Assembly: GCF_022539505.1 (NCBI RefSeq)
Contig: NC_061512.1
Coordinates: 246,714,510 to 246,778,509, forward strand
Reading direction: 5' to 3'
DNA length: 64,000 bases
Origin: Lolium rigidum
Taxonomy: Eukaryota > Streptophyta > Magnoliopsida > Poales > Poaceae
Of the stretch, positions 37,896 to 60,516 are shown piece after piece. Position 1 is the stretch's first letter. Each line of letters opens with the position of its first letter. The position numbers were made by a program, and so were the translations under genes. The notes under the pieces are model-generated. The model saw only the letters and a list, made by a program, of their open reading frames with translations. It did not search any database and was not told the origin of the DNA.

Positions 37896-37897
<2 letters not shown>

Positions 37898-38294: not shown

Positions 38295-38324
<30 letters not shown>
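38295..38324. repeat. (TA)15 between two facing termini
   Basis: Fifteen TA units flanked by AGTTCAGCTC and GAGCTGAACT, so the whole is a perfect palindrome of more than 60 bp. It is the shared target DNA between two neighbouring elements of one family. Confidence 0.9.
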
Positions 38325-38327: not shown

Positions 38328-38557
38328 CTGAACTATTCTCGAACCCCCCTTAAGAGTGGTTCTAGAATAGCTATTCTAGAACCCCCCTAATCCCACTCGG
38401 TTTCTTCCCCCCGTCCCGACCGATACCCAACCGAACTTCCCACGTCCCGACTCCCGACCGATACCGATTCGTGAACGAAGCGAACTTCCCACGTCCTCCT
38501 CGTAAAAACACCGCGCCCCGCATCGAGCGGAGATCAACCAGCTCCGCACCTCCACCT

Positions 38558-38907: not shown

Positions 38908-41073
38908 ATGGCTCCAATTAGAGGCAGATCATCGGAACATGCTTCAACATCAATCCGACCAAGCTCCTTCAAGACGCTAGCACTGGAGGAAGATAAGGTA
39001 CAAAACCAGAAGTTCACATAACTCATATACTGCTTTGTGCTCACTGCAAAACCAAAAAAAAAGGAGCACTTTAGATTCTAGTGAAAAGAAAGTTCATAAT
39101 GATTCATAATGGAAGTTCACATAACTCATTTAGAAAAAACGACCAATTTAGATTCTCCTTAAAAGGTTCATATGAATTTATATTGGAAGTTCACATAACT
39201 ATTTAACTGCTTTTCCTGTACATCAGTATAAACAAAAACCAAAATTAGACTGGAAGTTCACATATTCTCCTGCAGAGTCTATTGTAGGAAAAAGAAAACT
39301 TATGTCTTTTACTGGGAAGTTCTTAAAAACAGTTTCCTGGAGTTCACTTCAGTTATAAAAAATAAAAACAGCAAAATGAAAAAATAAGTATGCAGGTGCA
39401 TGTATGTCGGAAGTTCATATTACATTGTTTAGCGGTTAACTTTACTTGTTTTAGTTTTTTGAAGACATCAGACAAAGTTTTATGTATAAAAGTTCTAGTC
39501 CAAATGTTCAAGAAGTTCGCATGTTAAAAAACTTACCTTGTTCTGCTACTGCAGGGCAAAGAATCGGAACAGAAGCGATGGCGACGAGATAATCGGCTGG
39601 TCGAGCCCTAAAAAGCCTCCAATGACTCCCATATGCTGTGATGAGCCAGTTTCATTTATCCAACCAGTGTTCCGCAATCCCAAGAGAAAGACAAATGCTG
39701 CTGCCGTTGAAAGGAATTTCAATCGGAAAATCCAAGAACAAGATGACATGGATAACAGCAAAAGGAAGCGGGATACCACAACATCAACAGATGATGATGA
39801 GGATATTATGTGTTGGTCAGGTCCACCAAAAAAACCCCGTTCACCAATAAAGTGCACTGAGGAGATATTTGCTAGTAATGCAACGTTCCGTCAGCCACGA
39901 AAACGGCAATCTACAAGTACATCTACAACAAACACAGCTGGAAGCAACAATGTGAACAGGGACAGTGGCCAAAAGTCGTCTTCTAGCAGTGATGCTTCTG
40001 AACAGCAACGCAGTTATGGGGATGGTCAAAGTGACAGCATACACCAAGATCGTCGAGGCACTCAATCAAGTCATATGCCGCCTCGAGATCCACTCTGCCA
40101 TGTACCAAAAGTCACACCGCCATGCCCCATAGTACCAGATGATAGAGCCACCCCTGCAGAGCTGCGAACATACACACACGTAAGTTCAATTTATATATTG
40201 CTGATAAAAATTTCACTCTTACACACACATTTATTTAGACAAATTTGCATGGAAGTTCACATGCTATATCTTTAGAAAAAACAGTTGATATGATTGGGAA
40301 AGATCGTGAACCCTATATCCATGATAAAAGTTCAGCTGATTTTTAGGAAGTTCACATGCTCGGTTTATTATATGAAATGTGTAGTTGATATGTTCTCGAT
40401 ATTCATGTGCAACAGTTTTCCTGTGAAAAAAAGTTCAGATGACTTTAAGAAGTCCATGTTCTTATTTTTTATTAAATTTTAGGAAGTTCACTTGACCTAT
40501 TCCCTGAAGTTAACATACAAATAAAATATGTAAAAATAAATAAAAAATAATGCAATAACAAAACCGTGGCAATTTGCGAGCTGCAGATCTTGATCCGGAC
40601 CTGATACCATCCATTGGTCAAGAATTTAGTACATTCAAAGACGCATATGTATTTTACAATACATATGCAAAGCACACAGGGTTTGGGATAAGGAAAGGAC
40701 AGCACAACAAGAGCAGGCGTTACTTGAGATGTGTACGAGAAGGTACACACCGCCAAAGTGTCAACGAGGAAGACCGACAGCGTGACAAGATGACCAAAAG
40801 AACTGGGTGCAAGGCCTTTATGAGATTGAAAGAGAGGAGTGATGGTACCGCATTGTCAAGGACATTACACTTCAGCACAACCATACCCTCGCTGTTAAGC
40901 CCATCAATGCTAGTTTTCATGCGTTCTCACAAAAAGGTGGATCCAACATTGAAGGGGTTGGTAAAAGACCTTCAGTTCAGCAATATAAAACATGTAAACA
41001 TAATGGGCCTGCTTACAAGGCTGCATGGTGGCCGTGATAAGATTGGCTGCCACAACAGAGACATACTAAACAT
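38908..41073 (+). pseudogene. FAR1-type MULE transposase, N-terminal exons and FAR1 DNA-binding domain
   Basis: Candidate exon 1 (38,908-38,997) starts MAPIRGRSSEHAS and ends at GATAAG|GT. Exon 2 (about 39,555-40,180) is Ser/Thr/Lys-rich with two repeats of a W-S-x-P-K-K-P type (GWSSPKKPPM, CWSGPPKKPRSP) and ends at CAC|GTAAGT. Exon 3 (about 40,587-41,073) carries the FAR1 domain: TFKDAYVFYNTYAKHTGFGI, RKGQHNKSRRYLRCVREG, GCKAFMRL and, in a shifted frame, WYRIVKDITLQHNHTLA. This zinc-binding fold recognises DNA in FHY3/FAR1 and their transposase relatives. Exon phases do not fit at both splice junctions, and two compensating frameshifts (about 40,850 and 40,900) disrupt exon 3. Confidence 0.78.
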
Positions 41074-41201
41074 GTAAGTACTCCCCCGCCCCCCCCCTCC
41101 CACCCCTCCTTTATATATAAAATGAAAACTTACATGAAAAACAGGGGAAAGAAAAAAGCAAAACAAAAAAAAGAAAAATAACAACAAATTTCTTTTTGCA
41201 G

Positions 41202-42818
41202 AAAGCGAAAAACACGAGGAAGGAGTCCATGAATGAGGTGCAGAATATGTTCAAATTCTTTGAAGACATGAAGAAGGAGAATGAAAATTTCTTCTATGAC
41301 TACAAGGTTGATGACGAAAACAGACTGGAAAATGTTTTCTGGTCTAATGCTAGCTCGAGGGCAGCATATGCAGATTTTGGAGATTGCATAACTTTCGATA
41401 CTACTTACAAGTCGAACAAGCACCACTTGCCCCTTGCAGTATTTGTCGGCGTAAACAACCACTTGCGATCAACAATCTTTGGTGTTGCGTTGATGGGAAA
41501 CGAGTCAGAGGAGTCCTTCAAATGGGTATTCAGCAGATTCCTTGAATGCATGGGCGGTAAACAACCAATCTGCATACTTACAGGTTTGCAGAAAAATCAG
41601 AATCTATACTCCTGTTTGTACCTTCAGTTGTAGTTCATAACAAAAACACACAGAAGTTCACATGTTTACACCCCTGCAACACGAAAAAATAAAAGATATT
41701 TAATTTGCTGAAGTTCACCTTTGTTTTGTTTTTTGTGAAGTTTGCTTGCATTATACCTGATGTGTTTTTTCCTAATAATTGTTCAGATCAATGCCCAGCA
41801 ATGGCAAAAGCAATACCTAAAATTTTCAAACGGACTCTACATAAGTTCTGTAGATGGCACATAATGAACAAGCATAAGGACCCGCTGAAGAAGCTTTATA
41901 AACTATTCCCTGACTTGAAGGATAAGCTGACTGCAATTTTGAACCATCCCCTAATGCCATCTGAGTTTGAAGATGCGTGGAAGGCTTTGATTGAAGAGTA
42001 CAATCTGCATGATATAAATGTCATGATTAACTTATGGGCTGAAAGGAAATTGTGGATATCAGCTTACTGGAAGGAAGTTTTCTGTGCACGCATGACTTCA
42101 ACACAGAGAAGCGAGAGCATGAACTTTGTGCTGAAAAGGGGTTTTGTCACTGAACGAGACAACCTACACATTTTTGCTAAGCAAGTTAACAACTGCATAC
42201 AGGCAAGGCATGAAGCAGAGAATGCAGAGGCAAATGCATCAACGGTGAGTGATCGATTTCCTTTTTTATGTTAATGAAAAAAAATATGCTTCAATAATTT
42301 GGAAACACATAGGATGAGAACATAAAAAAAAGGAAAAAGACTATGCAGATGTTATGGAAGTTCACAACTGTTTGGTCAGGGGTTCTTCTGTACACAAAAA
42401 AGTGTCATCTGTTTTCGAGAAAAAAAAGTATGCACATGTTATGGAAGTTCACATCTGTTTAGTTCTGGGGTTCATATATATATATAAAAGTTATCTTATG
42501 TTTCATGTTCAAAAAGCAAATGACTTTTCCACCGACAAAAATCAAAAATGCAGGGCTCAAGGAAAACAGTCACCAGGTATGGCTTCGAGGCACAGGTGAT
42601 GGATAAGTACACACGGGCAGTGTACTCAGTTTTCCGGGAGCGGCAATATCACAAGCACAGACTTTCCGCATTAAGACTTCCCAGGATAATCCCAACATTT
42701 ACCTTGTGCATCACTACAATCGAGTAAAGAATTCGCTTGGTCAAGACATGAGTTCGAGTGCTAGCAGATGAAGTTGAAGGCCGCTATGAATGCGAATGTA
42801 AACTGTGGGAACATACAG
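41202..42818 (+). pseudogene. FAR1-type MULE transposase, catalytic core exons
   Basis: Exon 41,202-41,583 contains VFWSNASSRAAYADFGDCIT then FDTTYKSNKHHLPLAVFVGV, with the first catalytic Asp (FDTTY) of the MULE DDE domain. It is joined at ACAG|GT to exon 41,787-42,244, giving ILT-DQCPAMAKAI with the second Asp. That exon continues FCRWHIMNKH and TSTQRSESMNFVLK, whose Glu is the likely third acid. Exon 42,554-42,818 leads to the SWIM motif but is frameshifted at least twice (near 42,670 and 42,760). A one-base miscount in an A-run at 41,207 would repair the phase with the preceding exon. The protein would cut the element's ends for transposition. Confidence 0.82.
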
Positions 42819-42949
42819 GTAAAAAAAAAAGCCTCTTTCATCAATTGCTTTTGGTTGTATTACACTACAGATGCATATAAAAAAAGTAATCGTTGACACG
42901 AAAAAATAAAAAAATTAACCGAGCTAATGTTAACTTTATGCACACACAG

Positions 42950-44209
42950 GGTTGTTCTGCCACCATGTCATAGCTGTCTTTGAGCACCTACGCCTGGATG
43001 AGATACCAAGCAAGTATATACTCCGAGAGATACACCAAAGATGCGAGTGACAAACCCCGATTACAACCGCGAGACTACAGGACAACAACGGACGATGGGA
43101 CTTCAATTGAATACGGACGAACAATCCTTTACGGTGAAGCGATTAAAATTATAAACAAAGGATGCACTTCGGAAGCAAAATTCCAAATAGCATTATCTCG
43201 CCTTCGGAGATGCCAATACAAACCTGGACAATGAGGATGCAGAGCCGGAGAATAATGAGGATGCGAGAGATGGAGAATAATGAGGATGCAGAGATGGAGA
43301 ACAATGAGCGAGTCATCGAACCAAGAAAACACAACACGAGAAACTGGCGAGCACAACGACATTCCTCGGACCGAGGACAATGATCCATATGCGGATATAC
43401 GACCTCCACTACTTGCAATAACAAAAGGAAGCAAGACTACGAGATGCCGCAAGGAGGAATGGAAAATGCAAACCCCCGCACCTGCCCGTCCGGAACCGGA
43501 ACTAGATGAATACGGGAGACCGAAAGGTACAAGATTATGCGGAACATGCAATAAAATTAATGGCCACAATTCCGGAACCTGCAAGGCAAGGCAGCTGGCT
43601 AAAACACTCTTGGAAACACATAAGAAGGTGTATGGGCCTACAGCATCTTCAGCAAATATCAAGGTCCGCATAAGAAACTTGCTTGCTCGCCAGCACATTC
43701 CAGAGAATGATGAAGAGGAAAAACTGGACACAGATGAGGGTGAATGCTTCGAAGATGAGACGGATGATGAAGAATATGAGCAAGAAGATGAGGATGAAGA
43801 TATCACTGAGCAAGAAGATACACAGAAAACACCAGATGTGGAGAGCAAACTGCAAAACTTAAATAAAACGGGAGGACAAAGGAAATGCAGCGTGTGCAAC
43901 CTAAGGCTAGGACACTACGCGTCAACATGCCCCAACAGGGAAAAGATACTACAACAACAGATTGTTGAACGACAAAGAAGTGATGGTGCAACAATGAAAC
44001 CAAAAGGGGTGAAAGCTTGTGGTACATGCAATAAGATAAGGGGACACAACTCTAGAACTTGCGCAAGAAGGCAGCTTGAGGAACAGCTATTACACCTGCA
44101 GTCAACAGAAAATGATAGCAACACAATGGAAGATAGAAGCAATGAGAAGAACAAGGAGAAAACACAAACTACACCAGCACCTATAAGAAGGAGTACCAGG
44201 AAGAGGTAG
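42950..44209 (+). pseudogene. FAR1-type MULE transposase, SWIM finger end and zinc-knuckle C-terminus
   Basis: Joined to YECECKLWEHTG of the previous exon, this exon begins LFCHHVIAVFEHL, completing the CxCxnCxH SWIM finger typical of MULE/FAR1 proteins. A Glu/Asn-rich repeat region (43,228-43,310, built of GAATAATGAGGATGCAGAGA units) carries another frame change. The last frame (43,280-44,209) then encodes three CCHC-like knuckles: CGTCNKINGHNSGTC, CSVCNLRLGHYASTC and CGTCNKIRGHNSRTC. These are separated by a very acidic stretch and end in RRSTRKR, a likely nuclear signal. Confidence 0.78.
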
Positions 44210-44883
44210 ACACAAAAAAGGAAAAAAAATAGAATAGTTCATACTGAAAACAAATATGTAGTTGGTTACATTGTGTAGAATAAATATACTGCTGAAGTTC
44301 ACTATTTGTTCATGCTACTGCTGATCCAAAATGTAAAGAACAGGAATTTTCATAAAAATCATTTATTTTAAACCTCTACACAGGATGTTGTGAGAATAAA
44401 TATATCGTAATTCAACTGCTAGACAGTTGTTCACGTAAAATGTTGATTAAAAAAAAACAGCAGGAAGTTCACAGCCGATTATCCGCGAAGTTCACTATGT
44501 ATGACGGTGTGAAAAAAAAGTTCGTATAAAAATTAAACAGGAACACACATGCAAGAAAAAAAGGGAGATCAGATATCAACAGCTGCGAAGTTCTCACATA
44601 CTATTCATACGTGAATGATACTGAATTGTTAAAAAAATGAACAGACAACATATAGGATTGCAAAAAACAGTAAAATAGGGACATCTTCATTGTATTATAA
44701 AATGAATAAAAGGGAAGGGAAACACAAAGTAAAAAGAGAAAATTATGACTGCGAAGTTCAGATCTAGCCAACTAAGGAATTCTCTTAAACATAAAACCTA
44801 AAAGAAAGTGTAGGTAAATTAAACGATTACAATCTGATCATAGAAAAAATAAAAATAAAAATGTCCCTACAAAACTAAAATCT
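44210..44883. other. Spacer between transposase and exonuclease copy 1
   Basis: AT-rich with six or more motif copies. The two genes converge here, so both 3' ends lie in it. The second half begins the 1.39-kb tandem duplication at 44,406. Confidence 0.6.
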
Positions 44884-45792
44884 TCACCAATCCCTGCCAC
44901 GCTTCTTCTCGGGATGTTTGAATAAGGAGAAGAAGCCCCTCTCAAACAAATCCAGCCTTCGATAAACCTCGTAGGTTGCATATGCATCCCGTGCAGCATA
45001 TTCCAAATGCTTAGGCGGTAGAGGCGGCGGATTAGCCCACATCCTGTGCTCTGCCCTTCCAAAACCATCCTTCATCTCAAAATAGATTGGATCTATAATA
45101 GCTCCAGCAACATCCTTCAGGCCTTGAAGTTTCTTCTTTTTGTCCGGATCTCTCCATATTTCCTGGATATCCTTCAGATTATGAACATAGAGATTTGAAC
45201 GTGAGAGAACTTTGCAGTCTTCACGTGGTGCAAAAACCAGCAAAAATGTACCTAAAGCCATGAAGAAACTCAACCAAACTTTCACTCCTCTCATCGAGCA
45301 TGGCATATGTGGTACACAAGAACATCGGTGCCAACACATAGCTGGATCACAGCAGCTTTCTTCGGATTGAAATAGGTACCACTGAGTTTGTCATACTCAA
45401 CATCAAGACCAACAATCTTCCTAGCAGAAGAATCGAGGGAACCTTCAGCATTGGTGATCCACTCCTCAACACTAGCTGCTGAATTCGTGTACAGAACCTT
45501 CATAGTGGTTGTGCCATGGCAGGGGAATGTGTACTCGTGGGAAAAAGGAGCGTTTGCCATGCAAAATCGGTGGACAGAAGAAAAGAAAGAAGAAGCAATT
45601 GGTAATTCACGTGCACCGAGCCAGAAAAAGAAAAGACCTGTATTTATAGATTGAGATGTAACAAACACGTCGTGATCCACGAATTCAGGAAACAAACAGT
45701 ATATATCCAAAACAAATAAATAGAACAGCCGATGGAGATAACAAGAAAACAAAAATTCTGCGGGATAACAGAAACAAAAATGACCTTATCCG
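44406..45792. repeat. Tandem duplication, unit 1 (1,387 bp)
   Basis: Begins CGTAATTCAACTGCTAGACA and contains the frameshifted exonuclease copy 1 with its downstream spacer and upstream leader. Confidence 0.88.
44884..45560 (-). pseudogene. DEDDy 3'-5' exonuclease, copy 1 (one-base insertion)
   Basis: The start at 45,560 gives MANAPFSHEYTFPCHGTTTM, equivalent to copy 2. Motif I is VGLDVEYD (D, E). An extra C in ATGCTCGATGAG near 45,297, compared with ATGCTGATGAG in copy 2, shifts the frame just after the VYHICHA strand. After the shift the same protein resumes and reaches motif II (NLKDIQ) and motif III (YAARDAYATYEVYRRL), ending KHPEKKRGRDW. Two further small differences in the following 30 bp blur the alignment. 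As sequenced, the product would stop soon after motif I. Confidence 0.85.
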
Positions 45793-47203
45793 CGTAATTC
45801 AACTGCTAGGCAGTTGTTCACGTAAAATGTTGATTAAAAAAAAACAGCAGGAAGTTCACAGCCGATTATCCGCGAAGTTCACTATGTATGACGGTGTGAA
45901 AAAAAAGTTCGTATAAAAATTAAACAGGAACACACATGCAAGAAAAAAAGGGAGATCAGATATCAACAGCTGCGAAGTTCTCACATACTATTCATACGTG
46001 AATGATACTGAATTGTTAAAAAAATGAACAGACAACATATAGGATTGCAAAAAACAGTAAAATAGGGACATCTTCATTGTATTATAAAATGAATAAAAGG
46101 GAAGGGAAACACAAAGTAAAAAGAGAAAATTATGACTGCGAAGTTCAGATCTAACCAACTAAGGAATTCTCTTAAACATAAAACCTAAAAGAAAGTGTAG
46201 GTAAATTAAACGATTACAATCCGATCATAGAAAAAATAAAAATAAAAATGTCCCTACAAAACTAAAATCTTCACCAATCCCTGCCACGCTTCTTCTCGGG
46301 ATGTTTGAATAAGGAGAAGAAGCCCCTCTCAAACACATCCAGCCTCCGAAAAACCTCATACGTGGCATATGCATCCCGTGCAGCATATTCCAAATGCTTA
46401 GGCGGTAGAGGCGGCGGATCAGCCCACATCCTGTGCTCTGCCCTTCCAAAACCATCCTTCATCTCAAAATAGATTGGATCTATAATAGCTCCAGCAACAT
46501 CCTTCAAACCTTGAGTTCTCTTCCTGTTGTCCGGATCTCTCCATATTGCCTGGATATCCTTCACATTATGAACATAGTACTTTGAACGTGACAGAATGGT
46601 GCGGTCTTCTGCGACGCAAAACCCAGCAAAAGTGTACCTATAGCCATAAAAGAAATCATACAACTTTTCACTCCTCTCATCAGCATGGCATATGTGGTAC
46701 ACAAGAACATCAGTGCCAACACATAGCTGGATCACAGCAGCTTTCTTCGGATTGAAATAGGTTCCACTGAGTTTGTCATACTCAACATCAAGACCAACAA
46801 TCTTCCTAGCAGAAGAATCTAGGGAAGCTTCAGCATTGGTGAGCCACTCCTCAACACTAGCTGCTGCGTTTGTGTACAGGACCTTCATAGTGGTTGTGCC
46901 ATGGCAGGGGAATGTGAACTCGTGGGAAAAAGGAGGGTTTGCCATGCAATCGGTGAAACAGAGAAAACGCACAGAAAAAAGAAAAAGGAAAGGGAGAAGA
47001 ATCGGTGATTGATATGCACCGAAACACAGAGGGAAAAAGACATGTATTTATAGTTCCAGAAATGTAACAGGAGACGTCGTGATCCACAAATTCAGGGAAC
47101 AAACCAATACATATCCAATAAAACAAAACAGAAACAGCCGAGAGATAACCACAAAAAAACAAAAAAATCCTGCGGGATAACAAACAAAAAAGGATCTTAT
47201 CCG
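45793..47203. repeat. Tandem duplication, unit 2 (about 1,411 bp)
   Basis: Begins CGTAATTCAACTGCTAGGCA and ends at CTTATCCG, as unit 1 does. The first 450 bp of the two units are almost identical, while the coding parts differ more, including several replacements. Confidence 0.88.
46271..46945 (-). CDS. DEDDy 3'-5' exonuclease (WRN/RNase D-like), copy 2, intact (224 aa)
   Basis: The second Met of the frame (46,945) is taken as start because copy 1 has the matching Met and the context GCATGGCA is good; nine more codons are open upstream. The acidic catalytic residues of a DEDDy exonuclease are present: VGLDVEYD (about residues 50-57, D and E), NVKDIQAIW (about 138, D), and YAARDAYATYEVFRRL (about 193, Y and D). 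Conserved AAVIQLCVG and VYHICHAD strands lie between. Length fits a bare exonuclease domain without helicase. Enzymes of this fold remove nucleotides from 3' ends of DNA or RNA, usually in the nucleus. It has no visible intron, unlike its neighbours, and lies inside a Mutator-like element, so a role in processing transposition or silencing intermediates is possible but unproven. Confidence 0.85.
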   Translation of the reverse strand: MANPPFSHEFTFPCHGTTTMKVLYTNAAASVEEWLTNAEASLDSSARKIVGLDVEYDKLSGTYFNPKKAAVIQLCVGTDVLVYHICHADERSEKLYDFFYGYRYTFAGFCVAEDRTILSRSKYYVHNVKDIQAIWRDPDNRKRTQGLKDVAGAIIDPIYFEMKDGFGRAEHRMWADPPPLPPKHLEYAARDAYATYEVFRRLDVFERGFFSLFKHPEKKRGRDW

Positions 47204-48115
47204 GGGCCAGTTGTGAGCTCACGTGCAAGCACAAAACAAAAAAGCATAAAAAGACTACAAAGAAGTTCACGTGATAACAGTGCAGACGTTCGCACAGAGT
47301 AAAAACACTGAAAAAATAAAAAGCTGTTCCACACCAACCAACCACCCCCCACCCACCAAACCACGCCCAACCCACTAAAAACCACCACTCGGCGCAAAAA
47401 AAAAGTCAACCACTGCCTGGTGTTCCGCCGGAAGAAACATCCCACGGAGAAGGAGTCGAAGGAAGAGCAAAGGGAGAACAAAGAACAGAGAAAAAGAAGA
47501 AGAAGAAGAGAATTCTAGCAAGATCTACAGAAAAGTAATCCAGCATCAGAAAAGCGAAGGGATTACCTAACAAAAAGAAGGTGCGTCTAACCCATCCCCA
47601 TCCCATCTACTCATTGAATCGCCGTGGATCTTCCTCTCTTTCATCCTTCATGGCCGTGGTTTTGAATCTAGACTAGTATAAAAAACAAAGATCTAACAAC
47701 TTAACAAAATAAATACCTTAGAGATTACTTAAAAAATGTTTTGCATACGATAGATCTATCAAAAAAAATCAAATAAAAACATGTTAGGCAGAGGGTTGGG
47801 GGGGGGGGTGGAATAGACACTAATGAACAAGAACAGGAGTTCAGATAAGAACTCCCGAGAAGCTCACTTGTGAAAATAAATGGAAAACAATATACAAAAA
47901 ATAAAATAAGTTGGAGGGTTTTAAAATCTACAAACATGTATCCAGCCGGCATTAGTATACTGTGATTGGGAAACTTAAAAAATATATAATAAAAGAAGTT
48001 GGAGTTTAAAATGTAGACAACACAAAATGCAGACTAGAAGTGGAAGTTCAGTTCAAAAAAGTGATGAGGTCCTGTTAGTACAAAAAATGTTTTATGCTGG
48101 AATATTGTGACAGGA
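47204..48115. other. Spacer upstream of exonuclease copy 2 and the B3-like gene
   Basis: The genes diverge from here, so promoters for both directions should lie in it. AAC-rich and A-rich tracts and several motif copies (47,264, 47,838, 48,043) are seen. A CCACC-rich tract lies at 47,340-47,390. No coding frame is convincing. Confidence 0.5.
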
Positions 48116-48907
48116 ATGGCTGCTGGTCCATCGTACGTCATCCTCAGCGACAGCGAAAGCGATGAAGAGACCTGTAAAAGAGGTAAAAAAAGATAGAAAT
48201 GCTTTCAAAAATACTTTATGGAACTAAAAATGTGCTTATTTTTTATGCAGGTCCAACTATTCATGGATTTGAAATCTTTGACAAGCACTCGTCACTTCGG
48301 AAATGAAGTTGAAATGACCAAGGAAAATCTGGATCATCTCAAAAGGCAAGTACTTGACTACAAGCCAACAATCCCATATTATGTATGCAAGATGGGGAAG
48401 ACAACGAACAACATCACGAGAGGCAAAATGGTAATACCAAAGACGCCAACTTACAAAACTTTATTTTCGTACACTAACTCGTATTACATATGATGTTTTG
48501 GCTGAACCAACATGTATTACTAACTTTATTACAGTCTTCCGATATTTAAATGTTTATCGAAGTCCAGTATAAAAGAAACCGTGAAGTTCACTTACGAATA
48601 CACTCGAACATGGATATGATATTCACTTTCATGTGTTTTCATGCGGACTTTCGATAAGGAATACACCGAAGAACACCTAAAGAATTATCTAACGGAGCCA
48701 ACAACAATTCCAATAACCTCCAACACAAATGCCTGGGTTGGTACACGGGTAAGGATAAACAAAGTTGCAATCGGAAATGCAGTGATGACAACAAATTGGC
48801 CGTGATGTAGTCATGGGTGCGAAATAAAAGATGGAGATATCTCGCATGTTCGCTTCTACGACGGAACAAGAGAACTCGGCTGCTTCGTGACACGTCTTAG
48901 CAACTGA
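48116..48907 (+). pseudogene. Small B3-like DNA-binding protein, broken by indels
   Basis: Exon 1 (48,116-48,182) reads MAAGPSYVILSDSESDEETC and ends at AGAG|GT. A second exon starts after TTTATGCAG at 48,250 and contains KPTIPYYVCKMGKTTN in a frame reached by an early shift, ending at AAAATG|GTAA. The last exon (about 48,640-48,907) reads FDKEYTEEHLKNYLTEPTTI, WVGTRVRINKVA, TTNW, CEIKDGDISHVRFYDG and ends GCFVTRLSN. The first strand (I-P-x-Y-V-C-x-M), a hydrophobic W-V strand and the C-x-I-K-D-G-D-I-x-x-x-R-F turn suggest a plant B3 fold of the REM type. At 48,799-48,812 one extra and one missing base disrupt the NW...HGCE join. Confidence 0.6.
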
Positions 48908-49423
48908 GTCTGAAAAACTTACTATGAAAATAAAATTATGTACCAGTTTACTTTATTGAACCTTATGTTTTGTATCAGCACCCCGAGAACAAATTATGGT
49001 TGTGTTTCAGTATTGTTGATGTAATAAGAATGCTTATGAAGAAGTTCACATAGAGTGAGTACGAAGTTCGCTTATAAATGAAAAAAAGATTAGCAAGTTT
49101 ATGTTCACAGAAGTTCCTACATGAAAAATCATTTCTGAATATACGGGAATAAAAAATAGTACAGTTTGCATTGAGAAAAACGAATGGATATGGGAATACT
49201 TTTACACTGTGATGACAGAGAAGTTCACTAATAACAAAAAAAAAACAGCACATATTTTGTACAGCTTGCTGTTTTGAAAAAAGAAAGACCATATCCTCAC
49301 TAATTACATCCGTATCCCGAATTCAATCACATAATGAGAAGTTCAGTTCAATAAAACAACAAAAATAAAAATGTTGAATATCCTATCAACTACTAATTGC
49401 GAAGAAATTGAATCGGATCATCA
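48908..49423. other. Spacer between convergent genes
   Basis: Between the B3-like gene's stop and the end of the minus-strand protease gene. At least five motif copies (49,043, 49,064, 49,110, 49,221, 49,340) and no coding frame. Confidence 0.6.
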
Positions 49424-51700
49424 TCATGCAGATCCCAATGATCGCTGGGTTGTCTGCGAACCTAGACCAATAAGCAGCATGAGATCTTTCAACATACTAG
49501 GCCACTGCTCCGCCAGAATTTCATTCTTGGGATGAAATAGGAGCTGATACATGTACTCAGCTTTCCAATCCTCAACACGCCGCTGGTAGACAATCAGGAA
49601 TGCAAAAAAAAAACATATGAAAAACAGTAAAAAATAAGACAAAAAAGCTATACAGCGAAAAAAACACAGCACTACACTTACATCCTGGTTTTTTATATTA
49701 TCAGCAATCTTATCACCACCGTATGTAGCACAAATTCTTAGAGCATAGAAGCCACACTCATTAGCCCCTTGTGCCGGAGTCTTTGGATATGAACACCGTC
49801 ACAGCAACAACATCCCACTGTATATTACCATTATATTTGTTAAATTCTGCAACACCATACACCTGTTTTAACAAGGCCACCATCCTATTAATCTGCAAAA
49901 ACAAAAAAAGAACAAAAAGTGAATGGTTTCAGCAGTTTAAAAACAAAAAAGGAAAGAAAAAGCTGGGAAGTTCACATAGTACTGATATATCAGTTCACAC
50001 ACACTACATATAGTTTTAGCAGTTTAAAAAACATATAAAAAGTCGGGAAGTTCACGGTGTACTAACATATCAAATTAACACACACAATCGGATGGTTTCA
50101 GCAGTTTAAATAAATATAAAAAATAGCTAGGAAGTTCATATTGTAAAAACATATCAAGTACGGACAAAAAAGTTTGAATGGTTGCGATAGTACACATAAA
50201 AAGAAAAAAGCTGGGAAGTTCACATTATATTAACAAATGAGTTCACATAAAAAAAGTAAAAATGATAGCAGTGAAAAAGTAAATAAATAAAATGATGAAA
50301 AGAAAATCACGTACAATCTCAACACGATCCTCATGGTGCCGACTCCTTGAAGTATGTGCCAGACCAGTATACCTCCTAGTGTCAAGGATGTCCAACGTAC
50401 CAGTGTACTTGTTCATAACATAAACAGAGTGATGATCATCCATGAAATGAGGGATGATGATCTGTTCAGCAACAACCGAAATTAACAAAAAGGAAGTACG
50501 CACGTGAAAACAAAAAAAAAAACAAAGGGAGTTCACTACAGCAAATATGAAGAGGTTCAGATTAAAAAGCATACCAACTTTGCTTTCAGCAAATTTTCAT
50601 TAGGCCGAACATAACGCTTGAACATTTTAGCAGCAGACCTCACATCAAAAGGTTGTCTCGGTAATGGATTACCATTGCTGTCCCTTAGCTTGAATGGCGC
50701 AAAATCAAGCAAGTACTGCACAAAACACAAACAAAAAAAAGGAAAACTATACAAAGTAAGTATATGCATACAAAGGTATATCTGAAAAAATTAATTTTCA
50801 ATGTTTGAAAAAACCTACAGGGATAGTATGAGGTGACATCAAAACACGAGAGCCAGATTCAAAAATATATTTCATCCCCGGATCATCCTTCCGATAATCG
50901 ATGATATGATCCATCATGTCGGATTCCAACATTTCACAGCGGCCAAACAGTTTATACATGTACTTGGCATCAACTAAAACAGGATCATCAAAATCATTGC
51001 AGAACTTCACCAGGGGGACACTGCACACACATTAAAAAAGAGAAAATATATATATATAAGACTAGGGAAGTTCACTTAGCATATAAAAAAATAAAAAGAC
51101 CTAGAGAAGTTCACTCAGCACAGTATATGAAGTTCATATGCCACAAAAAAAAACTAACTAAGTAGTAAACGAAAAACATACCTTCCATGAGCTTTGATGT
51201 ACTCCTTGCTTAGAATTAACTCCATCATCTGCTTGGCCTTGGATAAATGAGGAAACACATATGGTACAAAGTTTGGGACTTCTTCCCCGAACTTATTGGA
51301 CAATTTAGTAGGCCTTTTATTCGAAAGAACCAGATTTTTAGCACTAGACTCGCTCGGGCTTCGAGTTTCAAAATCATCACTTGCTAGTCGGAGAACAGCG
51401 CCGAACATCCTTTGTAATGGGCTTCGCAGTAAGCTTCTTACCAAGCTGAGTGACAAAGTCATCAGAATCATCATCGTCGTCGAGCAAAACTACATCAGCC
51501 TTCCCCTTCTCGCAGGTGTCGTGAACCTTATTCCTAGAAGATTTTCTCGGTATTGGAATGCAGCCTCGGGATAATCTTCTTTGACTTGCTTACAAGACTA
51601 TCAAAATTCTCTTCAGGGATAATCTGAACTTCTGGTGTGAATGACTGAGTCTCGAAAAGTGAGAAATTATCTTCCTCGATACCAAGAGATGGACCTGCAT
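49424..51700 (-). pseudogene. Ulp1/C48-like protease, second module (3' half of the long gene)
   Basis: Read on the minus strand, exons include: an acidic linker (VVLLDDDDDSDDFVTQLGKK, about 51,430-51,540, reached by a frame shift); RPTKLSNKFGEEVPNFVPYV; VPLVKFCNDFDDPVLVDAKY; YLLDFAPFKLRDSNG; IIPHFMDDHHSVYVMNKYTG then LDILDTRRYTGL; and ANECGFYALRICATYGGDKI (about 49,700-49,765). The last exon ends LMLLIGLGSQTTQRSLGSA at 49,424. His (HHSVYV), Asp (LDILD) and Cys (ECGFYAL) in that order are the triad of C48 (Ulp1/SENP-type) cysteine proteases, which remove SUMO-like tags. Splice sites (CTGCAT/AC and GT) fit several exons, but indels break others. It may be a separate gene or the C-terminal part of the preceding module. 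Confidence 0.68.
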
Positions 51701-51819
51701 GAAAAGAATACAAAACCAGGAAGTTCACTTCTGAATCAAAAAACAAAAAAGAAACAAAAACAGTGCAGTCCAAAAAAAACATGTGTTATAGAGCATAGCC
51801 AGCGATATATTTTGCGAAA

Positions 51820-53199
51820 AAGTAAAAATCATACCAGGATCAACACCTAAAACATCTTTCAGGTCGATATTGAAATCTCCACCTGTCAGCCAGCTATATA
51901 ACATGGTCATCCTGATGTTTAGAATATCTTTTTGACTGAACAAGCACATGCTTTCCCCATCATAAGACTGGAGGATCTGTAGCATGAAGAACCCGCAATC
52001 ATGGCTGCAAAAAAAAAACACACAAACAAAGAATAAGAATAAAAAGAAAACAATTGTATTAGTTAAAAAAAAAAACCCTGTAGTCAATGTATACAGAATA
52101 AAGAGCAAAACAAAAGAAAGGGGAAAAAACGCTTACGCAGTTGCCTGTCTTGGAGAATTAACATAGTGAAGCTTGAAGTGGTCGATGGATTTTGGATGAA
52201 AATGATCACCCTTTGAATTCCCTGCTAACGACCATAACTTCTTGATACCAGATGCCATTGTATGTAACAGACTTCTTACCATCTCGGATCATTTATATCG
52301 CGTAACGAATCAAGCAATTCAAAACGCTCTTTCTCAAGGTTCAAAGCAACAACACAGAAGTGACCAGGAACGTGTGGTGCACATGGATCAGGAGGATCAA
52401 AACAACCAAAAAGAATCTGCCATTAAAATGATAAAAATAAAAAAGGACAGGTTAGAAGTATGAAAGGTAGACTATTTCCTCAAATAAGAAATCACATTTA
52501 ACTTTACTACTGAGTTATTTTAGTAACATGTACAACAGGGGAGGGAAAAAAAGGTAGGAAGTCCACATGCCATAATTAGTGAAGTTCAGATGTATAGAAA
52601 AGAAGAAAAAAAGACAACAGACGAGCACCCACTTTCTTGTGGTCCAAACGTTCCGGAGCATCGACGCTGAAAATATTACGAACAAGCCGAGAACTCAGAT
52701 TTCTTTCAAATATCTGCCTCTGCAAACATGACAATGAAACACAAAGAAGGTTAAAAACATAAAGGAGGAAAAAAATAAGCACCTACATTAACAAAAAAAA
52801 ACTAAAAAATGATAAAAAGAACGGAGAAATAACTTACAGAACAATTGTATGGCACCACCATTTTATCAGAATTCTTGTACTTCTGACCAAGCAAGTATGT
52901 TCCAACAGAAACAGTTAGAGAACAAAGAAACCCGTTGGGTTTAAAAGCTTCAGCAATTTGTCCGATCGTGCAATCACATTGATCATTCATGAAAAGGGTC
53001 TTCTTACTGCAGAAAAAAACACAAAAATTAGAGGACAAAACAAAAATTTAATAAAAAAATAAAAAACAAAACAACAAAAAAAGAAAAAAGCCTAAAAAAC
53101 AGATAGAACCTTCTTATGGGATCTTTCCTCAACTTGCAAACGCTTTCATATACTTCTTTGATTTTAATCATCATAGGTTGAAGAGACAGTGGAGGCGTC
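51820..53199 (-). pseudogene. Ulp1/C48-like protease, first module
   Basis: Minus-strand exons in order: MIKIKEVYESVCKLRKDPIR (about 53,110-53,175); KKTLFMNDQCDCTIGQIAEA and SVSVGTYLLGQKYKNSDKMV-like strands (52,835-53,000); RQIFERNLSSRLVRNIFSVD (52,635-52,720); ILFGCFDPPDPCAPHVPGHF then CVVALNLEKERFELLDSLRD (52,270-52,425); MASGIKKLWSLAGNSKGDHF (52,137-52,258); and HDCGFFMLQILQSYDGESMC (51,835-52,006). His of PGHFCVV, Asp of LLDSLRD and Cys of DCGFF form the C48 triad. Individual exons are mostly open, the His exon ends in a stop two codons after NDPRW, and a frame change is needed there. Confidence 0.75.
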
Positions 53200-56100
53200 G
53201 AACATAAACTCGAGTCTGCAAAAAATAAGGAAACACAGACAAAAATGTAAGAACAAAAAAGGAAGTTCAGATGATGATATTCCAGAAGTTCACATATTCA
53301 AGAACGTGGTGCAGAAACTGGAATGTCCAGAAGACCCACAGTTCATCAATGAAGGCTACCATCAAAAAAATACACACACACGATATCACTCCCCCCCCCC
53401 GGTCAGTCATATACATGCAGAAAATGAAAACTACGACATGAACTCATGCCGCATTACATAGCATTAGGAAGTGTCTTACATGGAACATGATGCCAAACAG
53501 CGAAAAACAAAATACATATACAAAAGCACCCCACCACACCCCTCCCCCCATAAAAAACCAAAAAAAAAAGGGAAAAAGGTTTTAGATAGAGATATATGAG
53601 GAGTAAACATAAAGAATAAAAAGGCGGGCTAGCATTAGGGGAGGGTGTGTGGGGTAGGAGAACTCGTATGTTCCCCATTCGGATATCCTTGCCTAAGTCT
53701 TGCGGGGATTCTTCAATAGAAGCGCTCAAGTCATCTCGTTGATTCTTCAAAGAATGAGCTCGACTCGCTCAATCGAATCGATGCATCGCGTCCATGGTTA
53801 TCTCCAGCTCGAAACTCATTATTGTCATCATCATCGGCACCGATGCTCGCGCTCTATATTGGCTTCGGTACTCGGCAGCTTCTCCCCGTGCAGCAGCAAC
53901 ACCTACTTCCTCACGACCATGCGCAACAACGAGACTTACAATCCATAGCAGACCGGTAATACACCAACATCATCAGCAGCCTCAGCACATGTTTCGGAAA
54001 CAACTGCACCAATGCCAGGTAGTTGGGCAGCATCCTTCGCATCATTTCCATCCTGACATGTTACAAGATCTTCAGGAATTGAGAAACCTTTTCCAGTAAC
54101 TGCACAATCTTCAACATGGTGTTCAGCATCTTTGTCTCCATCAGAATGTGCAACTATCTCGGGAAATAAATTCCCCTTTCCAACAGAGTCTAACTCAGAA
54201 TAATGATCAGCAACTTTGTCACCGGCACCACCAGAATTACCATCACTGTCATCTAAAGGAGGAGTTACAGGGGTTGCCGGATGTACAAAATTATGCTTGA
54301 CATAATAACGATCAACAGATGAATTGTCATCACTGTCATCTGGAAGACCATCCTTCTCAACACACTTTTCATTTACCTACCAAACAAATAAAAAAACAGA
54401 AGTTCAGATGTAGAAGATGGAGTAGTCCATATACACACAAACAAAAAACAAAACAAAAGCCCAACTATAAAAAAAAAATAAAAAAATACCTCAGCTAAAG
54501 GAGGTGATTTATCAAAAACTGCATCTTCAACATGATCACCAGCAAAAGCTGGAGGACATTGAGGGGTTGGCGGACGAACAAACCCATCATTCACAGGTGC
54601 ATGATCACCATCTCCTGAATTCTGAGGTGCATTTTCCTCAGCAATCCTAGCATCTTCCTGCAAAAAATAAGAGGATAACAAAAAAGAAAAGGTAAGGAAG
54701 TTCACATGAAAAAACAAAGAAGTTCACATATGTGTAGTAACACAAAACAAGAGATAAAAAAGGAAGTTCACATAAAAAGGGATGGACATAAGTTCAAGAA
54801 TGACTAATTATACCTCGGCTTCAAGCAACTGATCGACCAAGTCCCGCATCAACATCTTCAACGGAAGAAGAAATATTCTTCTGAACATTACTTTCAACAC
54901 TATTATTGCCTGATACATTTGCACGGCTCTCAAACTGCTTGCACAAAGAGTCCTGATTCATACCAAAATCAAGAAAACCTGTGCGCATTAGAGACAAAGC
55001 CCCCCTCAAGCTATCAAGGAGCGATGTTTCACGCTTTGAATGCTCATCCAGTGCTTCAACACTGGGGAAATTACCATCAGCAAGCCGACCTTGAAATTGT
55101 TTCGTACGATCAGCTGTAGTCGGAATCGTACGAGAGAGATACTCAACTTTCTGCAACAGTGATCCAATCTGATCAATAACACCAGCAGAAGGCATCCCAG
55201 CACTAGTTGAAGCAGACTGGTGATTGTCTTTCGTCTTGACATTAGCAATTTGCGAAATTGGAATCTCGCAATGACCTCCAGCAGGATGTTCATTGGCATT
55301 ACCAGCATCAGGCTCACTACGATGGGTGCCCTCATTAAGATTGACAATTAAATCTTCAACACGATACCGATATGAATAAGCAATTTGGTTGCGGCCTTTC
55401 CACTGCATTGTAATACAGGAGTTCACTTAGCAGATATTATGAAGTTCAGATGATACATAAAAAGTAAAAAAAAATATACAAAACTATGTAAGTTCACTTG
55501 GATATAAAAAGTAAACCTCATATGCCACATAAAACATTAAAAAAAAGACATAAGGAAGTTCACATGCGACGTAGTATGAAGATCAGATGCCACATAAAAA
55601 AAGGGTTACGCTTTGAAAAAACTAACCACAATTCTGCCAAACTTGTACTTCATCAACTCTGGTCCACCATTCTTTTGAATGTCCATTTTGTAAATAGCCT
55701 TCAGAGGTTTCTCATGAAGAAAGTTTGCGCGAGGAGTTTGAGTATGCATGACAGAATGTGGTGGTAGAAAGATGCTGTCAAGATACATAACAGTGGGGAT
55801 AACAGCACACCCTTCTAACCCAGTCTCGAGGGATATCAGTGGTCTTGATATTTAGTAGCAGCTCGTTTCAACTCATCAACAACAAGCTCGGCAATAATCC
55901 ATCTTTGCCATCTTATCATAATCCATGTTCACAAGCATTGCAGCTTCCCTACCGACACGGGTAGCTGAACCAGGACATATGAGCTTGCTAAAAAGAATGG
56001 CAAAGAAGACCTTAACAACCAAATCTTCCTTCTCGGGGTCTTCAACAAGATCAGATAACAATTGACGCAGATCTTTAGGCTCAATACTAGCATTGCTTTC

Positions 56101-58390
56101 GAACCCAAGCTCTTGTTTCAAAAGAGCCAATGACTCGTCATGTCCGGATTCTCGAGCAGTATAGGAGTATCGCCTCCTATAGGAAAACCAAACACCCGAT
56201 GAACAGGTGTCTCTATTAACCTCTAGAACTCGCCGTATCCACAAGCCAACTTCATGGTAGAAGTGTCAATAGTCTTCATCAAATAACACATGAGAACACG
56301 TGATACGTTACCCTCCAGACCCATCGAAAAACACAGCCAAAACCAGCTTGCTCAACCTTCAATCTGTGTTGCTGTTTTAACATTGCTGCAGCCGAACGAA
56401 CTTCACCGAGAGAACAGCGAACAGTTTGCTGAAAACGTGTCTTCTCACCATCAAGATCTTCATCTGCCTTCCTCTTCCTAGCCATGGTTTTCTTTGTCGG
56501 CCTTTTCAGAACTTTCTTCGAATCACCTTCCAAAACAACAGGTTTAGAAGGACCTGGCTTCCTACCAACTTTCTTCCCCTGGTATAGAAAAAAAACATTT
56601 AAAAACCACAAAAAAATTAATGAGAAGAGGAAGTTCACACCAACATGAACACAGAAGTTCACACTACACTAACCTTGGCAGGAGCTTCAAAGTCTGATTC
56701 ATCGCTAACCAATTCTGTACGACTCTTCTTAGCATTGCACTACATAAAATGAGATGCATAAAAAGGGAAGAGTTCAGATTCAATAAACAAAGAAGTTCAC
56801 AAGTGGAAGAATTATGTAAAAATGAAGAAACAAAAATAACCTTGCCGACAGACGAACACCATCTTCAGTGGAATCTGGGACATATGTCTCATCGACATCA
56901 ATCTTACGTTTACGGCGACCCAGACGTGATTTCCCAGGAGATGAAACTCGTTCCGAAGCAACAGTGGGCTGGACAGTAGCAGCAACACGAGGGCTGCGCC
57001 GCACGAGATTTCTAGCCCGGACGAAGCGAAGAGATTTATTTAAAAAATAGAGAAGTTCACAATGGTACACATATGTAAAAGTGAACAAAAAAGGAATTTA
57101 ACAGAATAAACAAAATAAGAACATAAAAAGAAATAAACCTTGTCAAGCAGCAACATCTTCTTGAGTGGCACCCGGGGCGTATGTCCGCTGCAAAGGATCT
57201 CTCGGTGGCAGGCAGCAGCAGAAGCAGCAGCTTTCCCCGCAGGTGAATTCTCTTTTATCTTCCTCGCAAACAACCCTTTCTTTCCTCACTTTAGGAGGAA
57301 CATCATTGACAACAGGCATTACCCTTAACGTGACTTTGCTTTCGCAGGTATTTCCGTAATATGTAGTCAATTTCTCCCGGTGCTCGAGCTAATTTAGCAG
57401 ACTTGTCTCTCCTTTTCCTTCGCAAGCTGTTCTTCAACCATATAATCCCGAGTAACTATTTGAGTACCAGCCACGGACCGAGATTGAGTTTCTTCCATCA
57501 CGGTGTAGCTTCAACCGTTTCGGACTCAAGAACTTGCCGCAGAGGAGTATAATCAAAAACGAGGCTGCCCATGTTACCCTTCTCAACAGCAGGAGTCCTA
57601 TCAAATGCTGGGGGATCTAAGAAACGCGGTAAACTGTCAGCAGAATATGCAGCAAAATCCTGGTTCAGCAAATCCAGAGATTCTCTTATAGTCTTGTCAG
57701 CTGCATAACACAAACAAATAACACAGAAAAAGAGTAAAAATGTAATCAAGAAAGCTTGTATGGATTGCAGGAAAAGGAAGTTCACTAGAAAATGTTAGTG
57801 AGGTTCACATATGTATGTTCCTAACCTGACTCATCGAGCATCATCCGTCATATTAGAAGATAAATTCCCCAAACCGAAAACACAAGCATCACCGTAATCA
57901 TCAACATGATCAAATACCTTCCCTAAAAAATACAAAAAAACAAACAAATTCAATGTCAGAAACATAGGAAAAAAATTCATGTTCAGACTTATACTTCCTA
58001 TGTGCAGCAAAATGTTAATTTCATGATTCACTTTTTTTAAAAAACAGCCTGTACATGAAAAATAAACATTATACATAGGAAGAATGAACATAATTAATAC
58101 AGTGAGTTCAATTAAATGACAAGTAGTTCATAACATGTGCTATACAGAAACACAGATAAAATAGATAGAAATCCTAAAATGGTGACCACGGGGAATTATA
58201 ACACAGAAAAAAAGCCTACAGAAAAGCAAACCCTAGAACAAAAAAAAAATGGACCAGTCATAGGACAGAACAAAAACATGGATATTTCATTTTTGACAAC
58301 GCAAGAATAAAGCATGAATTTATGGGTAGTAAAAAATACAAATCCGAAAAACAAACCTCCACCACCATTCGAAGCATCCTTATCCATCAC
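53200..58390 (-). pseudogene. N-terminal part of the long Ulp1-type gene, with conserved helical domain
   Basis: Translation probably starts at 58,390 (MDKDASNGGGG), spliced at GGAG|GT. Exons then give VFDHVDDYGDACVFGLGNLS (57,835-57,925), DKTIRESLDLLNQDFAAYSA (57,500-57,702), a basic exon with KSRLGRRKRKIDVDETYVPD (nuclear signal-like, about 56,845-57,035), and KPTKKTMARKRKADEDLDGE leading into VRSAAAMLKQQHRLKVEQAG and FGCVFR (56,300-56,580). ESGHDESLALLKQELGFESN follows, then LVVKVFFAILFSKLICPGSA and MLVNMDYDKMAKMD (55,890-56,150). This GFG...F-x-x-x-L-I-C-P region is the helical domain that precedes Ulp1 in many plant transposon proteins (DUF1985/mobile-domain-like). Long acidic exons (53,700-55,430) fill the rest. 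Several frames are broken (for example TGA after MTDDAR at 57,836). Confidence 0.68.
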
Positions 58391-58810
58391 TCACAGAGAA
58401 ATAAACAGAGGAACGGACTCCCAAACCAAAAATTGAAGCCGACCAGCCCGTCTGGGACGAACTAGAACCACCGCGAAGGAGAATCAGAGTAGCGCCGGAG
58501 TTCCAACCGCCGGCCGAACGGGGAAATATCGCCGGCAAACACCGAAGACGGCGAGGAAGAGCAAACTGCAGCGAACCTAGGGTTTAGACCAAAGGGGAAA
58601 TGGTGGATTTCGAGTAGAACGAAGGAATATCAACAGGGGACGGGGGATAGCAAACGAATCGGGAGCAGCAGTTACCTAGAGCGCCGCCGCCATTGCAGAG
58701 AGGATGTAGCAGTTTCGGGATGTCCGCCTGCGAGTGGGGGAAGTGGGGAGTGCGAAGGAGAAGGCGCAGACAAGAGGAGTAAAAAGAGGAGTTGAGAAAT
58801 AACTGCACCA
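58391..58810 (-). promoter_or_regulatory. Leader and probable promoter of the Ulp1-type gene
   Basis: GC-rich, with a candidate 5' untranslated exon ending CGCTCTAG|GTAACTG (donor at about 58,678) and CT-rich sequence upstream. No clear TATA box. The exact transcription start cannot be seen. Confidence 0.4.
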
Positions 58811-60110
58811 GATTTATATTAAAAAAAAAAAGGAGGCAACAATAAAAAAAAACAATGAAACGTTACCTTTGGCAGTAAGATATAAACAAACAGGAAGTTC
58901 ACATTTAACTGCGACTGCGATTCACTTTGTCTAAAAAAAAAAAAGAAAAAATATAGGATGGGAGGGTCACACCCGCACTGTCCCCACAACCATTACGAAG
59001 TTCACTTGATAAAAACGTCAGGGGTTCACTCATCTTGAAAAAGGGTATTTGGGTATATTTTAAAAACATTAATTGATTCCCTAATATAGCGGGTAGGAGT
59101 TCCCCACCACAATTACGGAGTGCACTTCTGTAAACGCAAGGAGTTCACCAATCTTAAAAAAATGTATTACACTATATTTTAAACATTTATTAAAAAACCT
59201 TTTATTCATTTCCTAGTATGGGGGGGGGGGGTCCCCCCCCCCTTTAATGGTACAAGAACAAAATAAATTAACACTGGTTAATTTATACATGGAGTTAAAG
59301 AAAAAGAATACCAAAAGTAAACTGACAGCAGTTCACGTAATAAAGTAACAGCAGTTCATTTTCAGATTTCAGATAAAAAAAGATAAAAACATGCGTATGA
59401 ATGGAAAAACAATAATAGAAAAAATTGGATACTACATTAAAGGGAAGTTCACAACTTACAAACAGATATATACATACATGCTCGATGTGGATTTACATGT
59501 GAAATGGAGGCCACAACTTATCTGAAAGATGAAAATCAAACATGCAATTGACAAAGTTCATGCATTCCGGTAGTTCACATCATAAAATTAAAGAAGTTCA
59601 TTTGTTATAATACCAACAAACATGCACTGCTGGTAATGAAAAACAGAGCAGAGACTTGTAAGCTACGAAAAAACCCACAGATAACAAGCATTATCTGGAT
59701 TCTGTTACTACATCAAAGTGTAAAGCATGAACACCACCGCGTCATCACTGCATCATCTGAGGAAAAACATAACTACACAAGCATAGGCAAAAATACCGAA
59801 CTAAGCAAAAGAACATAGATCTGTGAAAACAAAATTCGTGGATAAGGATCAAAGCAAAACCTATCAAAACAAAGCGCGAGAATATAACGGCGGAGCCATC
59901 AACCTCGAGGATTTCTGAAGCTGTGCGACGGCCATCTGAAAAAACAAATCTGCAGATCAAAGATAAAAAAGATAAGAGCAATGTCCGGATAGCATAGAAG
60001 AAACTGTGCCGCAGACATCAACGATCTGCGATGCACCAGTGGAGAACAAATTCGTCGATGGAGCGTCGGGCACGAGCACGGAGATGAGCCGCCACCGTCG
60101 CCGAAGTTCT
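58811..60110. other. Right subterminal non-coding region of the element
   Basis: AT-rich with many motif copies. It includes a degenerate duplication (about 58,960-59,060 versus 59,085-59,190) with ACCATTACGAAGTTCACTTG / ACAATTACGGAGTGCACTTC counterparts, and a G12-T-C10 palindrome at 59,220-59,242. From 59,880 it becomes GC-richer. A minus-strand frame opening MAVAQLQKSSRLM (about 59,936) is short and unsupported. Confidence 0.5.
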
Positions 60111-60416
60111 AAGAAACGCATCGAGTAAAAGGGAGGAGCTCGGGAGCGAGCAAGGGAGGAAATCGCCAGGGAGGAGCTCGGGAGCGAGCAGGGAGGAAAA
60201 CGCCAGGGAAGACCTCGGGAGCGAGCAGGGAGGAAATCGCCATGGAAGAGCTCGGGAGCGAGCAGGGAGGGGTGGGGAGCGAGCACGGAGGAGGTGGGTA
60301 GCGAGCGGGAGGTGGGACACGTAACGGTTCGCTGTCTCGTAGGAAGTTCACACGCGCGCGGGAGCGGGACGCGAGCGGGACGTGGGACGAGAAAATATGA
60401 AGACTCACGGGAAGTT
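60111..60416 (-). repeat. Right terminal region of the large element, inverted match to the small element
   Basis: Inverted match to 37,971-38,277 over 306 bp with about three differences. Contains five GAGCTCGGGAGCGAGCA-type units. The outermost part, expected to be about 75 bp by comparison with the small element, lies in the gap. Confidence 0.88.
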
Positions 60417-60516
60417 NNNNNNNNNNNNNNNNNNNNNNNNNNNNNNNNNNNNNNNNNNNNNNNNNNNNNNNNNNNNNNNNNNNNNNNNNNNNNNNNNNNN
60501 NNNNNNNNNNNNNNNN
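60417..60516. other. Assembly gap (100 N)
   Basis: Hides the right terminus of the large transposon, any target-site duplication and the junction with the next retrotransposon. Confidence 0.95.

Follow-up and report, generated by a model that had tools for sequence, protein, structure and literature searches.

VANDAL elements of Arabidopsis carry short words that are bound by anti-silencing proteins, the VANC proteins: YAGTATTAY in VANDAL21 and AGTTGTCC/AGTTGTAC in VANDAL6, as given in the sections of two reports compared here (PMC5735166, PMC10398659). According to the same sections, the words lie in one orientation in intron, intergenic and terminal non-coding DNA, often as tandem repeats, and differ among related families (PMC5735166, PMC10398659). 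Relatives of VANC that carry an Ulp1 domain (KIU) act likewise, and that domain is strongly conserved in eudicots (PMC13317346, in the portion consulted). Sequence-specific anti-silencing by transposons has so far been a matter of Arabidopsis and other eudicots in the parts of the literature consulted (PMC5735166, PMC13317346). Does a grass possess anything comparable? We analysed a stretch of 64,000 nucleotides from Lolium rigidum (contig NC_061512.1, positions 246,714,510 to 246,778,509 of the forward strand; the whole stretch is called the window), in which a short motif, GAAGTTCAC(A/T), recurs in fixed orientation through a large Mutator-like element (MULE) that we call Y. A literature search by the letters of the motif gave, by title, no transposon paper among the matches listed; a search on Lolium, MULEs and anti-silencing gave, again by title, no such ryegrass system among the matches listed.

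The repetition of this motif in one orientation, as originally predicted, is genuine and strong, and it extends across the genome. Between 38 and 61 kb of the window the 9-mer GAAGTTCAC occurs 40 times on the plus strand and once on the minus strand (38036), and the remainder of the window has none; dinucleotide-matched random sequences (200 runs) gave means of 0.1 on the plus and 0.085 on the minus strand, with maxima of 1 and 2. When one mismatch is allowed, the same interval holds 65 plus-strand and 5 minus-strand copies, and the rest of the window 0 and 7. The figure of over fifty copies in the original prediction thus holds with one mismatch but not for exact GAAGTTCAC(A/T), of which the whole window contains 37 on the plus strand and 1 on the minus strand, 36 of the 37 within 39009–59602 and the other at 60343. 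A weight matrix (consensus GAAGTTCA(C>G>T)(A>T)T) finds 66 plus-strand sites at a threshold that gives 3 on the opposite strand. The sites and the elements that hold them are as follows.

38325 to 60416, plus strand: Y, a large (TA)n-associated Mutator-like element; its left end, gagctgaactattctcgaaccccccttaagagtgg, follows (TA)n and its right end is lost in a gap of N
60417 to 60516, no strand: the gap of N that swallows the right end of Y
37896 to 38295, minus strand: X, a separate small (about 400 bp) inverted element, with (TA)n at 37856–37895 and 38295–38324
38295 to 38324, no strand: the (TA)n tract between X and Y
39009 to 59602, all plus strand: dispersed array of 66 sites resembling GAAGTTCA(C/G/T)(A/T)T, from the weight-matrix scan
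60343 to 60352, plus strand: exact motif in the right-terminal region of Y, from the motif search; a partial GGAAGTT enters the gap
38035 to 38044, minus strand: the sole exact inverted motif, part of X, from the motif search
38431 to 38488, minus strand: two weak inverted sites (38431, 38480) in Y's own left end, from the left-end reading

Where in Y do the sites lie? Only one of the 66 touches mapped coding sequence, where about 22 would be expected, since the homology map, itself incomplete, covers 7,281 of 22,091 bp; many fall in introns, as judged from the homology-mapped exons. The motif reads on the plus strand throughout Y, beside a transposase gene on the plus strand and exonuclease-like and Ulp1-type genes on the minus strand. 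Scarcity in exons and independence of gene direction had both been predicted, and both are upheld. A splicing, translation or other RNA-level signal, already disfavoured in the original prediction, would suit the many intronic sites, but this constancy of DNA strand beside genes of both directions, together with the presence of the motif in elements that match the window at their ends only, leaves such a signal scarcely credible. Over 40001–60000 the plus strand is also A-rich (AT skew 0.13–0.33 in 2-kb bins, above most of the window). Outside the element, at 30518–34700, lies a repeat of about 109 bp with ACAATACTT, strand-biased and on the same strand.

The sites are paired as well as oriented. 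In the window, 16 of the 66 are followed downstream by a further site at exactly 23 bp and 3 by one at 24 bp, the background chance being 0.45% per position. The spacers of 21 window pairs show on average no greater similarity than do those of site pairs taken at random (mean upstream identity 0.28 versus 0.33; one pair reaches 0.75), so most pairs are not copies of each other, and we rejected local duplication as the origin of most of those at 23 bp. Is the pairing peculiar to Y? Genome-wide searches (2.44-Gb assembly, 1,764 contigs) found 27,548 copies of the 10-mer against 8,809 of its reversed control, and 3,489 direct pairs at 20–23 bp against 0. Inverted pairs (0–30 bp between) were found at one palindromic place, and at one for the control. 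Among pooled loci of Y's own family (family 1), the spacing peaks at 19–20 and 22–23 bp, the former peak coming mostly from a single homologous place that is present in many copies; in a related family (family 2, described below) it peaks at 22–23 and 45–46 bp. Inverted pairs within 60 bp account for 0 of 362 in the pooled loci, a set fixed before locus L061, which has one such pair at a junction. Of 100 motifs listed for the first 13.4 Mb of contig C1, 61 fall outside two clusters, where the control would predict about 48 (counted by eye); isolated genomic sites are therefore near chance.

How constant are the sites among copies of the element? From 150 matches to the transposase exon, 30 loci of 3.5 kb were cut, the window and a copy in locus L011 among them. 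Every one of the 30 has GAAGTTCA on the strand of the transposase, and the antisense 8-mer occurs once each in L029 and L043; eight more loci (L046–L053, 59–71% identity) likewise have GAAGTTCA on the transposase strand and 0 antisense. Each of the 38 has at least two sense 9-mers, 231 in all with 0 antisense. Minor variants, counted over the 38 loci with kinship ignored, make up 1.9% in motif columns, 4.6% in the 20-bp flanks, 5.3% in non-coding and 2.5% in coding columns, and seven of eight motif sites are less variable than their own flanks.

The motif is also found in small elements that share little else with Y. In locus L009 two 2.2-kb elements lie side by side; they match the window at the ends only, and the 30 exact motifs in them all point the same way. 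The two units differ at 12 of 252 motif columns, 56 of 584 columns in the array spacers and 182 of 1,249 in the remainder. L061 and L062 match the window at end sequences only. In L062 there are 39 GAAGTTCA on the plus strand and 0 on the minus, with 16 of 38 steps measuring 21–23 bp. In L061, 35 GAAGTTCA on the plus strand are followed by 8 on the minus strand, 30 of 41 same-strand steps measure 20–23 bp, and the change of strand falls between sites 2885 and 2923, at a junction of two right ends that has no (TA)n. The L061 array comes near to being a true tandem repeat (unit 20–22 bp), in which it resembles the tandem repeats described for VANDAL targets in the section of PMC5735166 compared. 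Such regularity is also what replication slippage or gene conversion would leave behind as a functionless, minisatellite-like product; but the unrelated spacers of the window pairs, and sites that are dispersed, avoid mapped exons and vary less than their flanks, make an origin of that kind quite improbable.

How do the sites lie relative to the ends of the elements? In seven of seven polarity readings made by eye (Y, X, the two L009 units, the L011/L012 element and two in L061), the family-1 word runs toward the right end, away from the GC-rich left end. Inverted copies had been predicted in left-end DNA only. The location was right, but the exact inverted copy (38036) belongs to X, itself an inverted element, and not to Y. 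A second copy of Y, in L011, begins at the same place as the first (L011 6420 corresponds to window 38313 by blastn). Within X, 37971–38280 is an inverted match to 60108–60416 at 97–99% identity, and both the right-end hairpin and the 23-bp motif pair are present in reversed form; X is apparently a deletion derivative, made up, as read by eye, of about 20 bp of the left end and about 380 bp of the right end of Y. The apparent 300-bp inverted repeat is, on our reading, X set against Y's right end, and we rejected it as a sign of long terminal inverted repeats in Y. Relatives have short related hairpins at both ends, Y's own right end falling in the gap. The hairpins at element ends are formed around AGAATA-N-TATTCT, a plan common to both families with different arm letters.

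Autonomous and non-autonomous members share these ends and the (TA)n flanks, Y's right flank lying in the gap, and because of the flanking microsatellites we place the elements with the Micron/SaTar MULEs. In the parts of the reports compared, Micron/SaTar (rice, guayule; PMC5907723) and MuTAnT (Medicago; PMC4486113) are likewise microsatellite-flanked MULEs with autonomous and small non-autonomous members, and Micron/SaTar neighbours are, as here, joined through the microsatellite without nesting (PMC5907723). Unlike SaTar, the elements here carry phased motif arrays; the main text on SaTar, in the portion compared, names neither a motif nor Ulp1 (PMC5907723).

Just inside the right end stands a motif pair at 22–23 bp, in six of six right ends read, one of them from family 2. 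The left ends are different: of seven, those of Y and L011 have two weak inverted sites each, that of L009 unit 1 has one, and four have none. Might the sites then serve transposition? In this main rival explanation the FAR1-MULE transposase, or a partner, would bind them for that purpose, and the internal arrays would act as a reserve or as decoys, drawing transposase to non-autonomous copies. It gains from the right-end pair, from the presence in the transposase of FAR1, a DNA-binding domain, and from the dense arrays of the small elements. It does not readily explain why the window sites spread across about 20 kb of introns and spacers, or why the left ends are mostly without sites, and we regard it as somewhat unlikely. 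The TnpA protein of En/Spm binds repeated short subterminal sites confined to the ends of the element, and effects on methylation have been reported. The sites here are like those of TnpA in being short and repeated and, on our proposal, bound by an element protein; they are unlike them in filling about 20 kb of interior with uniform orientation.

Do related elements use the same word? Beside the Y-like copy in L011 is a (TA)n-flanked element (L011:801–5690) whose ends are different and which has its own array in a single orientation: GAAGTACA occurs 14 times against 0 and AAGTTCAA 7 times against 0, with 8 GAAGTTCA and no GAAGTTCAC. In family-2 stretches generally, GAAGTACA is present in eight of eight and GAAGTTCAC in none of the eight. 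The transposase loci L054, L055 and L058–L060 (53–60% identity) contain 8, 7, 2, 5 and 8 copies of GAAGTACA, respectively, and no GAAGTTCAC, with AAGTTCAA alongside in four of the five; Y has 40 GAAGTTCAC and 2 AAGTTCAA, and its GAAGTACA count is 0 on the plus and 2 on the minus strand. Direct pairing is again found genome-wide, with 1,650 pairs of GAAGTACA at 20–23 bp against 3 for the control. At L056:3200–4000, GAAGTACAG and TAAGTTCAA alternate in steps of about 22–23 bp (minus-strand reading). Arrays of the two families lie within about 20 kb of one another near 10.99, 28.16, 29.92, 59.1 and 71.43 Mb of C1, as well as in L011, a neighbourhood that resembles the non-nested arrays reported for SaTar elements in the part of PMC5907723 compared.

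The change of word between families bears on a further alternative, in which the words are targets of transcription or chromatin factors of the host and serve the element as enhancers or insulators. Non-coding position and phased direct repeats are, as a matter of general knowledge, typical of transcription-factor arrays too. However, two related families with different words in one genome would need two host factors or fast host evolution, and isolated sites are near chance; binding by host factors is in our judgement unlikely.

If a protein of the element itself binds the words, which one is it? The genes of Y are the following.

40610 to 44209, plus strand: FAR1-MULE transposase gene with introns (FAR1, PF03101, E 2.4e-12; MULE, PF10551, E 9.8e-18; exons by tblastn)
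44884 to 46950, minus strand: two DEDD-type 3'-5' exonuclease-like genes in tandem duplication (PF01612)
49427 to 57001, minus strand: UlpAB, a long multi-exon gene of Ulp1 type (tblastn with P0002, P0004, P0006 and P0009)

The PF10551 and PF03101 matches make Y a MULE; insertion in (TA)n would mask a target-site duplication of the 8–11 bp typical of MULEs. A zinc-knuckle-like C-terminal exon of the transposase (43259–44209) was recognized by eye; tblastn matches of P0025 and P0049 run through stops there. The PF01612 match scores 28.3 bits for 46271–47047 and 19.6 bits, under the cut-off of 23.6, for 44884–45390; the 1,387-bp tandem duplication (44464–47047) includes the exonuclease-like gene and a motif pair (sites 44464/44487 and 45851/45874). 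UlpAB has an N-terminal conserved region, a C48 peptidase region and, recognized by eye, a second Ulp1-like region; H, D, Q and C stand at the expected places in both Ulp1-like regions (read by eye from the open reading frames). PF02902 is matched in two of its relatives, at E 3.4e-10 in P0004 and at E 3e-12, in two stretches, in P0008, and matches to the two Ulp1-like regions of the window are united in a single protein, P0004. P0009, from durum wheat, spans the N-terminal region to the second Ulp1-like region, and Pfam C48 was not found in it. Relatives of UlpAB occur in Lolium, Puccinellia, Avena, Triticum and Hordeum, the closest named ones coming from Lolium. The FAR1 and Ulp1-type genes named in the original prediction are thus present. 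The B3-like domain that it also named failed to appear: three open reading frames tested at 48–49 kb gave no Pfam B3 match, and we rejected a B3 gene there.

The transposase and Ulp1-type genes travel together. A search with the Ulp1-type N-terminal exon gave 150 matches, of which 116 positions were compared against 90 transposase positions; 64 of the 116 lie within 40 kb of a transposase. Of 48 with at least 57% identity, 41 lie within 40 kb, 40 of these on the opposite strand and downstream of the transposase exon; of 68 with less than 57% identity, 23 lie within 40 kb, 18 of them so arranged. Among family-2 loci, L055, L058 and L060 have a listed Ulp1-type partner (39–48% identity) and none is listed for L054 or L059. 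Since the two genes keep company in both families, both products are candidate binders. The precedent of VANC makes the Ulp1-type protein, by analogy, the most likely candidate; the motif pair at six of six right ends keeps the transposase in play.

What, then, is the array? Its fixed orientation, avoidance of exons, direct-repeat pairing and lower variation than the flanks, together with its presence in small end-matching elements and the different words of a related family, suggest a set of binding sites. On this sequence evidence we consider it probable that the motif is bound by a protein that the element encodes. The original prediction of such a site is therefore retained as the best reading, its DUF1985 and B3 parts being unsupported.

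Several observations weigh against this reading or against particular parts of it. The motif pair at the right terminus fits a role in transposition at least as well. Site 41653 shows no higher conservation than its flanks, part of the conservation of the sites could come from recent shared descent, and the genome-wide counts of direct pairs cover the 20–23 bp spacing only. The change of word is untidy: family-2 arrays mix two words, of which AAGTTCAA is close to the family-1 word, and L011:801–5690 also has 2 AAGTTCAC. The family-2 word runs antisense to the transposase in five of five transposase loci, and in L056 (12 of 13); in L057, about 13–17 kb from L056 and part either of that element or of another, it lies on the plus strand. 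Since the family-2 strand varies, it is only in family 1 that the word is shown to keep one orientation across an entire element. With regard to the Ulp1-type protein, DUF1985, through which the original prediction had linked it to VANC, was not detected by hmmscan in seven relatives (E up to 1) or in three window exons (E up to 5), the relatives with an organism name are all from grasses, and the predicted structure (AlphaFold) of its N-terminal part has a mean pLDDT of only 38.

How might such a protein act? We propose that the element family would encode a DNA-binding protein for which GAAGTTCAC(A/T)T is the recognition word. At 20–23 bp, about two helical turns, the sites would be phased on the same face of the DNA, and the protein could bind cooperatively along them and so cover the element. 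It may thereby mark its own family and lift silencing as VANC does on VANDAL, from small copies in trans as well; SUMO-modified silencing factors are a possible target of the Ulp1-like regions. The interiors of the words, read from the letters, lack any complete CG or CHG site, which would suit a protein that must find a target still methylated. Anti-silencing is our preferred guess at the purpose of the element-encoded binder, at about even odds.

How close is the likeness to VANDAL? Here, as there, a MULE carries a dense, same-orientation short word in non-coding DNA, and related families carry different words (GAAGTTCAC versus GAAGTACA/AAGTTCAA). Unlike VANDAL, the elements live in a grass host, have (TA)n flanks and no detected DUF1985, and combine two Ulp1-like regions in one protein; lacking a DUF1985 match by hmmscan, they are not classed as VANDAL. 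The pairing at 20–23 bp with unrelated spacers and the motif pair at the right end are further differences, the sections of the VANC papers compared giving no spacing. We offer a more detailed proposal only tentatively: grass MULEs may possess their own means of anti-silencing, which would be either independent of VANC or long separated from it, and in which a double-Ulp1 protein would read a code of direct repeats (a word of 9–10 bp every 20–23 bp, with no CG or CHG wholly inside) and coat the element in one polarity. Words would change together with the protein between families, and small elements consisting largely of reader sites would live off it.

Paired sites thus number in the thousands in a single grass genome, spread over at least two families that differ in their words. 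With material of this kind, the co-evolution of protein and word, the role of the spacing, and the respective shares of anti-silencing and transposition become directly testable. The paired word is a simple probe for such elements in other grass genomes, and pairs of protein and word might serve to demethylate chosen loci.

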